Below are positions 6,295 through 30,905 of a DNA stretch of 64,000 nucleotides, one piece after another. The notes below the pieces were generated by a model that did not search any database, was not told the origin of the DNA, and saw nothing but the letters and a program-made list of their open reading frames with translations. The translations under genes were made by a program, and so were the position numbers. The stretch's first letter is position 1, and every line of letters begins with the position of its first letter. The stretch is from Sphingomonas cavernae (GTDB lineage Bacteria > Pseudomonadota > Alphaproteobacteria > Sphingomonadales > Sphingomonadaceae), in NCBI RefSeq assembly GCF_003590775.1, contig NZ_QYUM01000003.1, forward strand, positions 1,490,501-1,554,500, read 5' to 3'.

Positions 6295-6370
6295 GGGCCT
6301 GTAGCTCAACGGTTAGAGCTGGCCGCTCATAACGGCTAGGTTGCGGGTTCGAGTCCTGCCGGGCCCACCA
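6295..6370 (+). tRNA. tRNA with CAU anticodon (elongator Met or Ile2)
   Basis: 76 bases including an encoded CCA end. Acceptor GGGCCTG pairs with CGGGCCC, the D arm is GCTC/GAGC, the anticodon stem GGCCG/CGGCT encloses CTCATAA, and the T loop reads GGTTCGAGTCC. G1-C72 is paired, so this is not the initiator. A CAU anticodon may serve elongator Met or, after lysidine modification, Ile AUA; the overall sequence is somewhat ileX-like but this is not decisive. Confidence 0.93.
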
Positions 6371-6483: not shown

Positions 6484-6560
6484 CGGGGAGTGGCGCAGTC
6501 TGGTAGCGCACCTGGTTTGGGACCAGGGGGCCGTAGGTTCGAATCCTATCTCCCCGACCA
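6484..6560 (+). tRNA. tRNA-Pro(UGG)
   Basis: 77 bases with encoded CCA. Acceptor CGGGGAG pairs with CTCCCCG, the anticodon stem CCTGG/CCAGG encloses TTTGGGA with anticodon TGG, and the T arm holds GGTTCGAATCC. It lies 113 bases after the CAU tRNA with nothing recognisable between, so the two may share a transcript. Confidence 0.95.
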
Positions 6561-27595: not shown

Positions 27596-28984
27596 ATGGC
27601 GCTAGACATTCTGATAGTCGACGACGAGCAGGATATCCGCGACCTTGTCTCGGGCGTACTCGAGGACGAAGGCTTCGCGGCGCGCAGTGCTGGCGGCAGC
27701 GATTCCGCGCTTGAGGCGATCGCCGAACGTCGCCCCTCGCTCGTCCTGCTCGACGTGTGGTTGCAAGGCTCGCGGCTCGATGGCCTCGAACTGCTCGACG
27801 AGATCAAGCAGCGCGATCCGTCGCTCCCGGTGCTGGTGATGTCGGGCCATGGCAACCTCGACACCGCGGTTGCGGCCATCCGGCGCGGAGCGGTCGATTT
27901 CATCGAAAAACCCTTTGAGGCGGCGCAGCTTCTTCATCTCGTCTCGCGCGCAACTGAAACCGAGCTTCTTCGACAGGAGAATGCCTCGCTCAAGGCGCAG
28001 ATGGGGCGGGAGGAGGAACTGACGGGCAGTTCCGCGGCGATCAACTCGGTGCGCGCCACGCTCAAGCGGGTTGCATCCACCGGCAGCCGGGTGCTCGTGA
28101 CGGGACCTGCCGGAGTCGGCAAGGAAGTCGCCGCGCGCCTGCTCCATAAGTGGAGCAATCGAGCGACGGCGCCCTTCATCGTCGTCGGTGCTGCGATGAT
28201 GAGCCCCGAGCGTGTCGAGGAAGAACTGTTCGGCGTGGAGGAGGGCGGCGAACTCGTACGCCCCGGCCTGCTCGAACAGGCGCATGGCGGCACGCTCTTT
28301 CTCGACGAGATAGCCGACATGCCGCTTACAACGCAGGCCAAGATCCTGCGTGTGCTGACCGATCAGAGCTTCACCCGCGTCGGCGGACAACGCGTGGTGA
28401 AGGTTGAGGTACGCGTCGTCTCCGCCACCTCGCGCGATCTGCCTACCGAGATTGCCGCGGGACGATTCCGCGAGGATCTTTATTATCGGCTGAATGTCGT
28501 GCCCGTCCATCTGTCGCCGCTCGCCGAGCGTCGCGAGGATATTCCGTCGCTGATCGAGCATTTCGTCGCACGCTATGCCAGTGAGCGCCGCGTCCGCACA
28601 CCTTTGGTCGCCACCGATGCAATCGCCGCGCTTCAGGCCTATGACTGGCCGGGCAATGTGCGGCAGCTCCGCAACGTCGTCGAGCGCACGATCATCCTGG
28701 CGCCCGGCGATCGGATCAGCCAGATCGACCTCGACATGCTTCCCGCCGAGGTGATGGGCAACCAGGGCGAATCGGGCGTGGGCAATGCTGCCTCAGCGAT
28801 TATGGGAGCGCCATTGCGAGAGGCCCGCGAAACCTTCGAGCGCGAGTATCTGCGGATCCAGATCCGGCGGTTCTCGGGCAATATCTCTCGTACCGCGACC
28901 TTTATCGGGATGGAGCGTTCGGCGCTTCACCGCAAGCTGAAGCTGCTCGGCATGGCCGACGCCAAGCAAGATGGTGATGAATAA
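27596..28984 (+). CDS. ntrX: Response regulator NtrX
   Basis: 462 residues, three bases after ntrY. Receiver with LVLLDVWLQGSRLDG (Asp acceptor); AAA+ domain with Walker A GPAGVGKE; C-terminal Fis-type HTH (TFIGMERSALHRKL). The GAFTGA loop is missing: the place reads LFGVEEGGELVRPG. This matches known alphaproteobacterial NtrX, which works at sigma-70 rather than sigma-54 promoters. A 115-base gap separates it from hfq. Confidence 0.95.
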   Translation: MALDILIVDDEQDIRDLVSGVLEDEGFAARSAGGSDSALEAIAERRPSLVLLDVWLQGSRLDGLELLDEIKQRDPSLPVLVMSGHGNLDTAVAAIRRGAVDFIEKPFEAAQLLHLVSRATETELLRQENASLKAQMGREEELTGSSAAINSVRATLKRVASTGSRVLVTGPAGVGKEVAARLLHKWSNRATAPFIVVGAAMMSPERVEEELFGVEEGGELVRPGLLEQAHGGTLFLDEIADMPLTTQAKILRVLTDQSFTRVGGQRVVKVEVRVVSATSRDLPTEIAAGRFREDLYYRLNVVPVHLSPLAERREDIPSLIEHFVARYASERRVRTPLVATDAIAALQAYDWPGNVRQLRNVVERTIILAPGDRISQIDLDMLPAEVMGNQGESGVGNAASAIMGAPLREARETFEREYLRIQIRRFSGNISRTATFIGMERSALHRKLKLLGMADAKQDGDE

Positions 28985-29099: not shown

Positions 29100-29600
29100 A
29101 TGCCAGACAAGAACAACGCGAAAACCAACAATCTTCAGGACATCTTCCTCAACACGCTGCGTCGTTCGAAGACCCCGGTCACGATGTTTCTGGTGAAGGG
29201 CGTCAAGCTCCAGGGGATCATTACCTGGTTCGACAATTTCTCGGTGCTGCTCCGTCGCGACGGCCAGTCGCAGCTCGTCTACAAGCATGCGATCTCAACC
29301 GTGATGCCCGCGGGAGCGATCGATCTTTCGCCGATCCAGACGGCGTTTGATGAGGGACGCGGCAAATCCAAATCGCTGCAGGAAGTATTTCTTAACGCGG
29401 TCCACAAATCAGGCGACCCCGTGACGATGTTCCTTGTGAACGGCGTCATGCTTCAGGGAGAGATCGTCGCGTTCGATCTGTTCTGCATGCTGCTCCAGCG
29501 CGACGGGCTCGCGCAGCTCGTTTACAAGCACGCCATTTCAACCGTACAGCCCGCCAACCCGCTCAACCTCGCCGAAGAGAGCGGAGACGACGCGGACTGA
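29100..29600 (+). CDS. hfq: Double-length Hfq with two Sm-like domains
   Basis: 166 residues, twice the usual Hfq. Domain 1 (12-69) and domain 2 (92-149) are offset by exactly 81 residues; both end in YKHAISTV (61-68 and 142-149), the Sm2 motif with the uridine-contacting Lys/His. LQD at 12-14 becomes LQE at 93-95. The basic rim patch is RRSK (21-24) in domain 1 but HKSG (102-105) in domain 2, so only half the subunits carry it. Six Sm folds would need three chains. Hfq pairs small RNAs with mRNAs. AAGGAA precedes the ATG; hflX follows after three bases. Confidence 0.96.
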
Positions 29601-29603
29601 ACC

Positions 29604-30905
29604 ATGGCGGTTTTCCAGCGCGGTGAAGATGATGGCCTGGCGCGCGGCGCACGGGCCATCGTCGCCTTGCCCGACACCGGCGGCTCCGGGCGGGACGCAG
29701 CGGCGCGTCTCGAAGAAGCCGCGGGGCTGGCCGAGGCGATTGGTATAGAAGTCGTCGGGAAGCTCCAGTTCCGCCTGCGCCAGCCCAAGCCAGCGACACT
29801 CTTCGGCAGCGGTCAGGTCGACCAGCTCGCGGTCGCTGTGCAACAGGATGAAGCGGAACTCGTCATTGTCGATGCCGCAATGACCCCCGTCCAACAGCGC
29901 AATCTGGAAGACAAGTTAAAAGCGAAGGTGATCGATCGCACCGGCCTGATCCTGGAGATTTTCGGCGAGCGCGCAGCGACCGCCGAAGGTCGGCTTCAGG
30001 TCGAACTCGCGCATCTCGACTATCAGGCGGGTCGCCTGGTCAGGAGCTGGACGCACCTTGAGCGCCAGCGCGGTGGGTTCGGCTTCCTAGGCGGTCCTGG
30101 TGAAACGCAGATCGAGGCCGACCGCCGGATGATCCGCGATCGCATGGCCAAGTTGCGGCGCGAGCTTGCTGAGGTCAGCCGAACGCGCGGTCTCCATCGC
30201 GACCGACGCAAGCGGGCTCCCTGGCCTGTGATCGCTTTGGTCGGTTATACTAATGCCGGAAAATCGACACTTTTCAATCGCATGACCGGCGCTGACGTCA
30301 TGGCGGAAGATCTGCTCTTCGCCACCCTCGATCCGACGATGCGGCAGATCCGGCTGCCCGGAATCGACAAGGCGATCCTGTCCGACACCGTGGGCTTCGT
30401 CTCGGACCTGCCGACGCAACTCGTCGCTGCCTTTCGCGCGACGCTTGAAGAGGTGACGGCGGCGGACATCATCGTCCATGTTCGCGACATTGCGCATCCC
30501 GACACCGAGGAACAGAAGGCCGATGTCGAGCAGGTGCTGCGCGAGATCGGGATCGATATCAGCGGGGAAGGGGGCGTTCCTGTGATCGAAGCGTGGAACA
30601 AGATCGACCTTGTCGATGGCGAGGCGCAGGGTGAACTTCTTGGCGAAGCTGCGCGCCGGGAGGATGTCGCGGTGCTCTCCGCGCTCACCGGCGAAGGTGT
30701 GGACGATCTGCGCATCACCGTCGCGGCGCAACTGACCCAACGCAACCGCATCCGCACCGTGCGCGTACCGCACAGCGACGGTGCGACGATCGCCTGGCTT
30801 CACGCCAATGGCGAGGTGGTTGAGCGCGTCGAGGAAGGCGACCTTATCCGTTTCGAGATCCGCATGTCCGACAGCGACTGGGGCCGTTACGAGGCGCGTT
30901 CGTGA
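29604..30905 (+). CDS. hflX: Ribosome-associated GTPase HflX
   Basis: 433 residues. The N-terminal HflX domain has PKPATLFGSGQVDQL, the linker helix GGPGETQIEADRRMI, and the G domain contains GYTNAGKSTLFN (G1), DTVGF (G3) and NKIDL (G4). HflX splits stalled 70S ribosomes under heat or antibiotic stress. Order hfq-hflX is conserved. The last bases overlap the start of the DUF2093 gene (GTGA). Confidence 0.96.
   Translation: MAVFQRGEDDGLARGARAIVALPDTGGSGRDAAARLEEAAGLAEAIGIEVVGKLQFRLRQPKPATLFGSGQVDQLAVAVQQDEAELVIVDAAMTPVQQRNLEDKLKAKVIDRTGLILEIFGERAATAEGRLQVELAHLDYQAGRLVRSWTHLERQRGGFGFLGGPGETQIEADRRMIRDRMAKLRRELAEVSRTRGLHRDRRKRAPWPVIALVGYTNAGKSTLFNRMTGADVMAEDLLFATLDPTMRQIRLPGIDKAILSDTVGFVSDLPTQLVAAFRATLEEVTAADIIVHVRDIAHPDTEEQKADVEQVLREIGIDISGEGGVPVIEAWNKIDLVDGEAQGELLGEAARREDVAVLSALTGEGVDDLRITVAAQLTQRNRIRTVRVPHSDGATIAWLHANGEVVERVEEGDLIRFEIRMSDSDWGRYEARS

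Follow-up and report, generated by a model that had tools for sequence, protein, structure and literature searches.

The hfq locus of Sphingomonas cavernae raises the question of whether an Hfq made of two fused Sm domains presents the same RNA-binding surfaces in both halves and, if it does not, what kind of ring it would build. In the window analyzed here, a stretch of 64,000 nucleotides, hfq occupies positions 29100..29600 of the + strand, on which all features given below are located, and its open reading frame translates into a double-domain RNA chaperone of 166 aa plus stop. The protein matches the NCBIfam model NF010691 (PRK14091.1) at 295.2 bits, the cut-off being 270, with positions 15-175 of the 176 in the profile covered. 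Domain 1 (residues 12-73, 29133..29318) is a canonical alphaproteobacterial Hfq core scoring 105.4 bits against the Pfam Hfq model PF17209 (cut-off 27 bits), and domain 2 (residues 93-155, 29376..29564) is a diverged core scoring 85.0 bits. With TIGR02383 the halves score 105.4 and 80.8 bits, each above the cut-off of 61.7 bits, and their core identity to the single-domain consensus is 0.83 and 0.71, respectively. An earlier note on this DNA, made from the letters and their translation, had described two Hfq folds 81 residues apart, both with YKHAISTV. This was borne out, the motif starting at residues 61 and 142, so that the Sm2 motif YKHAIST is present in each half; the translation also confirmed LQD with RRSK in domain 1 and LQE with HKSG in domain 2. 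The two YKHAISTV copies differ in codons at several places. More broadly, the halves share their amino acid at 41 positions, with the codon also shared at 21 of these and not at the other 20, and fourfold sites agree at 11 of 25, which argues that the second domain is neither a recent nor an artefactual copy. A profile search of the S. cavernae genome gave no further Hfq match beyond the double hfq.

The gene lies between an NtrX-type sigma-54 response regulator upstream (27596..28984; Pfam Response_reg, Sigma54_activat, HTH_8) and an HflX GTPase downstream (29604..30905; Pfam GTP-bdg_N, GTP-bdg_M, MMR_HSR1, HflX_C), and the gene order is thus ntrX-hfq-hflX. This order is widely kept: among 213 double loci a same-strand NtrX match was found in 210, a same-strand HflX match in 211 and both in 208. 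The five exceptions are L224 and L292, without HflX, and L246, L093 and L094, without NtrX; three of them (L224, L246, L292) are truncated close to a contig end. In L093 and L094 (genus code g36, 2.1 Mb genomes) HflX is found downstream and an NtrX match is absent within 1500 upstream bases, and the domain 2 rim of both reads MQQQ, with zero basic residues. A promoter/terminator scan around the S. cavernae hfq returned 0 promoter-like sites and 1 terminator-like site, not above shuffles, and the GC profile shows a small drop at the gene (0.56-0.57). The only Rfam matches of the window at the gathering threshold are two tRNA genes, at 6295-6367 and 6484-6557 (+).

Fused double Hfqs were confined to one family in all samples searched (order, class and phylum). 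The order sample comprised 296 genomes, 213 of the window's own family and 83 of other families (family counts tallied by hand from the table). Within the family, 202 of the 213 genomes carry two Hfq matches and 11 carry one; elsewhere in the order 76/83 have one match, 6/83 none and 1/83 two. In the last of these (G001) the second match ends early at a contig end; its Hfq copies (L139 and L140) are located on two short contigs and are identical over the available piece of L140, so the pair is probably an assembly or strain duplicate. The class sample of 289 genomes included 285 outside the family, of which 232 carry a single match and 52 lack one, the remaining genome having two on different contigs. 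The phylum sample (398 genomes, overlapping the order and class samples) included 379 outside the family; an Hfq match was found in 276 and two matches in 7, and in all seven cases these belong to distinct, unfused genes that lie far apart or on different contigs. The two domains share one open frame in 142/142 two-domain loci that were fetched, a subset of the two-match genomes. Carriers include Sphingobium, Sphingomonas, Sphingopyxis, Novosphingobium, Erythrobacter and Qipengyuania, family and genus names being derived from named loci. Separate and more divergent second Hfq genes with longer frames were seen in five non-sphingomonad genomes (L312-L316, family code f209 and others), and the second Hfq of family f209 may be Burkholderia Hfq2. 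A genome of a different alphaproteobacterial family (G354) also holds a divergent second copy (L142) with FKRAIST, H39 and no basic rim, on a different contig from its canonical hfq.

The trees indicate that the fusion arose once. An NtrX+HflX tree built from 51 selected rows unites all 34 doubles in a single clade (support 100/100) and leaves the 9 same-family singles outside it; no reversal from double to single domain was seen in this tree. A quick HflX tree of 81 rows had grouped one double, L194, with the singles at low support, which implied two transitions to the double state, but L194 sits within the double clade in the more careful NtrX+HflX tree, for which the long-branched outgroup rows L295, L007 and L004 were removed. 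The domain tree (77 rows) recovers domain 1 as one clade (99/98) and domain 2 as one clade (100/100); it comprises 70 columns only, and the singles do not lie on one side of a branch, 5 rows being misplaced. Taken together, the trees support a single tandem duplication and fusion inside hfq as the source of the double Hfq of the sphingomonad crown group. Several duplications, or gene conversion between the halves, were rejected on the domain tree and the fixed half-specific residues. Secondary loss of domain 2 in the 11 single-domain genomes of the same family was also rejected, since singles keep the ancestral N28 (82/82) and branch outside the doubles.

The two halves were compared in a domain-wise alignment, in E. 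coli numbering, of 202 distinct doubles (from 213 double ORFs) and 82 distinct singles (from 89 single ORFs). The doubles include L292, cut at a contig end, and nine decayed proteins of the genus coded g13; the singles include the fragment L140 and the divergent copy L142, and lean to high-scoring genomes (the best 30 loci per listing). For each fetched protein the start was set at the closest suitable ATG preceding domain 1, so that N-terminal lengths are approximate. Rim net charge was calculated from positions 16, 17, 19 and 47', the last being the equivalent of Caulobacter R49. In S. cavernae the domain 1 rim is RRSK (residues 21-24, E. coli 16-19, 29160..29171) with Arg52 at 47' (29253..29255); R16 is present in all 202 domain-1 rows as far as the rounded percentage shows, and R at 47' in 196/202. 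The corresponding stretch of domain 2 is HKSG in the translation (residues 102-105, 29403..29414) with Gln133 at 47' (29496..29498), a position occupied by E in 149, Q in 37 and R in 5 of the 202 domain-2 rows. Positions 16/17/19 of this protein are thus R, R and K in domain 1 and H, K and G in domain 2.

This inequality is a trait of the clade and not a local exception, as the survey of relatives revealed. Rim net charge is higher in domain 1 in 200/202 doubles and equal in 2, the means being +3.95 for domain 1 (n=202), +3.91 for singles (n=82) and -0.40 for domain 2 (n=202). By genus (43 genera, 138 rows), the charge order is true for every row in 42, g13 being the exception. If the basic residues at 16/17/19 alone are counted, domain 1 exceeds domain 2 in 197 doubles, equals it in 4 and falls below it in 1; all three positions are basic in 196/202 domain-1 rows and 81/82 singles, and domain 2 has none in 36, one in 99, two in 66 and three in 1. 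Over the whole core (positions 7-65) the mean net charge is +3.87 for domain 1 and -0.52 for domain 2. The domain 2 rim is variable at positions 13, 16, 17 and 19, with an acidic residue (E or D) at position 17 in 88/202 rows. The earlier note had considered the domain 2 rim patch lost; its positive charge is indeed strongly reduced, but loss is too strong a term in general, given that Arg16 is kept in 136/202 rows, and in many species the domain 2 rim is weakened rather than absent. HKSG and LQE, which it had read in domain 2, hold for this protein and do not generally carry over to the family: the exact HKSG occurs in just 3/202 domain-2 rows, and the LQD versus LQE distinction is not consistent (domain 2 has D in 133, E in 66 and another residue in 3 of 202).

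Confining the asymmetry to the rim, as the note had done, proved too narrow, for distal positions 28 and 31, proximal position 41 and the C-terminal tail are also unequal. On the distal face, Lys33 of domain 1 (position 28, 29196..29198) is a derived residue found in 202/202 domain-1 rows, N being present in 82/82 singles and 201/202 domain-2 rows. Met117 of domain 2 (position 31, 29448..29450) is likewise derived, with M in 195/202 domain-2 rows and K in 82/82 singles; in domain 1 this position is K or R in every row (n=202). The combination of K/K at 28/31 in domain 1 with N/M in domain 2 is found in 193/202 doubles, and N/K in 82/82 singles, so the number of lysines per domain pair is conserved and the lysines are shifted to domain 1. 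Residues 28 and 30 line the distal N pocket according to the available text of a structural source (PMC8121710). On the proximal face, Leu127 of domain 2 (position 41, 29478..29480) is L in 170/202 domain-2 rows, N being present in 81/82 singles and 180/202 domain-1 rows; this position makes a base contact, as stated in the accessible part of an Hfq review (PMC10628458). Q63 is a further near-fixed derived state of domain 2 (195/202). The pockets themselves are largely kept: all five proximal pocket residues are canonical in 194/202 domain-1 and 190/202 domain-2 rows, and all seven distal ones in 199/202 and 191/202. Median dN/dS is 0.102 for domain 1 and 0.214 for domain 2, with 0/1278 pairs above 1 (pairs with dS 0.15-1.2 in both domains, taken from a randomly chosen quarter of the total), and pairwise identity among doubles is 0.855 and 0.723. 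Both halves are under purifying selection, domain 2 about half as strictly, and drift may account for some of the divergence of domain 2, given a rate of evolution about double that of domain 1.

The ends of the two domains also differ. In the alignment of the 202 proteins, the linker (residues 71-92, 22 aa, 29310..29375) replaces the acidic tail of domain 1, and an acidic C-terminal tail follows domain 2 in the sequence (residues 152-166, 29553..29597). Linker length ranges from 15 to 24 aa and is 20-23 aa in 186 of the 202. Mean net charge is +0.06 for the linker and -5.59 for the domain 2 tail (n=202), compared with -4.04 for the tail of single-domain proteins; the linker is net negative in 74/202 and positive in 81/202, and the tail in 194/202 doubles and 81/81 singles is net negative. 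In 192/202 doubles the tail exceeds the linker in acidity, and in 2 the two are equal. A weaker test is whether the domain 1 rim goes with the tail: it is exactly +4 in every one of the 192 doubles whose tail exceeds 8 aa and carries a net charge of at most -2. The nine g13 doubles have tails of 0-5 residues that are not acidic, and their domain 1 rim is +4 in 2, +3 in 4, +2 in 2 and +1 in 1. These nine (L143, L148, L149, L150, L151, L153, L158, L159, L160; genomes of 2.1-2.6 Mb) have lost the tail, have a shorter linker (offset about 74-76), often FKH for YKH in domain 2 and G for W38 in domain 1, and still carry K28 in domain 1. The five of them present in the HflX tree form one clade (support 99). 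As they represent one lineage with decay in both domains, the erosion of their rim may belong to that decay, and they may reflect a declining Hfq network.

We consider it somewhat probable (about 0.6) that this family of double-domain Hfqs goes back to one fusion and forms an alternating ring of three chains with specialized halves, in which rim and tail are coupled and the tail docks on the rim of a neighbor; of these elements, the number of chains, the alternation, the docking and an altered annealing are what we infer. Three chains would close a six-domain ring with domains 1 and 2 in alternation. Domain 1 would bring the extra distal lysine K28 and the basic rim responsible for annealing sRNA to mRNA, and domain 2, with a neutral to acidic rim, M31 in place of the distal lysine and an altered proximal contact at L41, would supply pockets and ring closure. 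Most of the tested residues of the uridine pocket (proximal) and the ARN pocket (distal) would be retained at all six positions of such a ring. The conversion of the domain 1 tail into the linker would have removed its acidic tip, and the domain 2 rim, which such a tip would guard, would have lost its charge; with the tip lost where the rim was lost, acidic tips and basic patches would stay equal in number. The acidic tail after domain 2 would then dock on the domain 1 rim of the next chain and gate annealing, and the ring would keep three tips for three patches. In the available sections on Caulobacter Hfq, rim residues R18/K19/K21 are the site on which the neighboring monomer packs its acidic C-terminal tip, in competition with RNA (PMC6561178), and an acidic tip on the rim in competition with RNA is likewise described for E. 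coli Hfq in the consulted part of PMC5606850. The S. cavernae protein carries both sequence features that tip gating would need, namely an acidic tail after domain 2 and a basic domain 1 rim. Since annealing scales with the number of rim arginines, as stated in the accessible portions of two sources (PMC6561178, PMC10628458), each ring would be predicted to have roughly half as many annealing sites, together with a distal face of unequal N pockets. In E. coli, R16A nearly abolishes sRNA-mRNA chimeras and the effects of K31A are milder, according to the available part of PMC12262471.

A ring of three chains, as proposed in the earlier note, is plausible and was already posed as a question in print by Yang et al. 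(2010; PMC2877685). The interface residues listed in the accessible part of PMC11770335 (F11, L12, I24, L26, V54, I59, V62) remain hydrophobic in domain 2 across the alignment of 202 doubles. An AlphaFold2 single-chain model (mean pLDDT 88.8, pTM 0.84) predicts a defined arrangement of the two domains without naming which arrangement it is, and its pTM may be high because AlphaFold has learned what Hfq rings look like. Covariation between the halves did not recover usable ring contacts, kinship dominating the signal (effective number 49).

The same observations can be read in other ways. After fusion, half of the rim, tail and pocket contacts might simply have become dispensable, domain 2 drifting without any new function and being held only by ring completion. 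The twofold higher median dN/dS of domain 2, its lower pairwise identity and its variable rim at positions 13, 16, 17 and 19 are what such asymmetric decay would produce. However, drift does not predict new fixed states in both halves, and these are found: K28 is fixed in domain 1 (202/202), and M31 (195), Q63 (195), L41 (170) and E47' (149 of 202) are derived and, to varying degrees, near-fixed in domain 2. We regard decay as an unlikely explanation of the whole pattern.

It is distinctly unlikely, in our opinion, that six chains instead form stacked rings, a homotypic domain 1 hexamer joined by six linkers to a domain 2 hexamer, each with its own RNA surfaces. Linkers of 15-24 residues would be long enough and the hydrophobic interface of both domains would allow each to close its own ring, but the narrow range of linker lengths and the defined, though unnamed, two-domain arrangement of the AlphaFold2 chain speak against it, and a domain 2 ring close to neutral or acidic (-0.52 vs. 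+3.87) would be at odds with its kept pocket residues. The acidic rim of domain 2 might also be a docking site that recruits a protein partner, e.g., a nuclease or the ribosome, rather than a vacated RNA site. The frequency of E at 47' and of E or D at position 17 is in line with this proposal; however, the acidic positions differ between genera and no partner emerged from this analysis, and we find it very improbable. The alternating ring of three chains with coupled rim and tail remains our preferred reading. It may tentatively be carried further, to an asymmetric Lsm-like ring encoded by one gene, with annealing and non-annealing subunits in alternation, one autoinhibitory tip per patch, paired distal lysines that prefer A-rich six-nucleotide (double ARN) steps, and tip and patch lost as a linked pair; we hold this extended form to be possible, if rather doubtful.

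The importance of such a protein lies in the symmetry of the usual one. Hfq is a six-fold homo-oligomer in which a mutation hits all six subunits, so that the number of patches or tails needed is hard to test. In the double Hfq the halves are in one chain and separately mutable, and throughout a large clade patches and tips have already been halved naturally. A real coupling would be evolutionary evidence that the acidic tip guards the basic rim, as proposed for Caulobacter and E. coli Hfq. The sRNA biology of sphingomonads, which are employed in aromatic degradation and ethanol production, would also need reinterpretation. Our literature search found no oligomer or RNA data on double Hfq; the consulted parts of two Zymomonas papers (PMC9797736, PMC5770649) contain no statement on oligomeric state, and in those of a Tn-seq paper (PMC10725011) hfq appears in the reference list only. 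Neither was a description of the asymmetry between the halves found in the main texts of the open-licence literature, and one may exist elsewhere in print. The double architecture is already known, while the clade-wide asymmetry of three faces and the coupled loss of tip and patch seem to be new.

With respect to known systems, the two-domain architecture is that of NF010691 and of ZMO0347, as the full-length match over the curated cut-off indicates. The earlier note had mentioned double-length Hfq from some sphingomonads, correctly so: the available text of Yang et al. (2010; PMC2877685) describes it in Zymomonas mobilis (ZMO0347) and in six further species of the Sphingomonadales, and raises the question of a ring made by three chains. 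Our analysis goes beyond that text in the unequal RNA surfaces, positions 28, 31 and 41, and the tail and linker, which are not discussed in the part available. The closest solved relative is Caulobacter crescentus Hfq (PDB 6GWK; 111.8 bits over residues 8-77). As far as the accessible account of that protein extends (PMC6561178), its rim is the same as that of domain 1 and its CTD is acidic like the tail after domain 2; however, it has one domain and a tip on every chain, whereas the double Hfq has one tip per two domains and a domain 2 without most of the rim charge. Domain 2 resembles in its few basic rim residues the Gram-positive type of Hfq without a rim arginine patch, a state tied to weak annealing in the consulted part of the review (PMC10628458), but in that type the patch is missing from every subunit and here, if the ring alternates, from every second domain. 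Burkholderia Hfq2 and other second hfq genes also provide a second Hfq-like domain per genome, as separate genes rather than fused. Eukaryotic Sm/Lsm rings are built from the products of seven genes, as seven unequal subunits in a fixed order. In the double Hfq one gene would provide two kinds of subunit and, if the ring alternates, unequal Sm subunits would likewise stand in a fixed order, as in the heteromeric rings that are mentioned in the available text of PMC2877685. If the asymmetric ring is real, bacteria would have reached a division of labor like that of eukaryotic Lsm rings via fusion and not via many genes.
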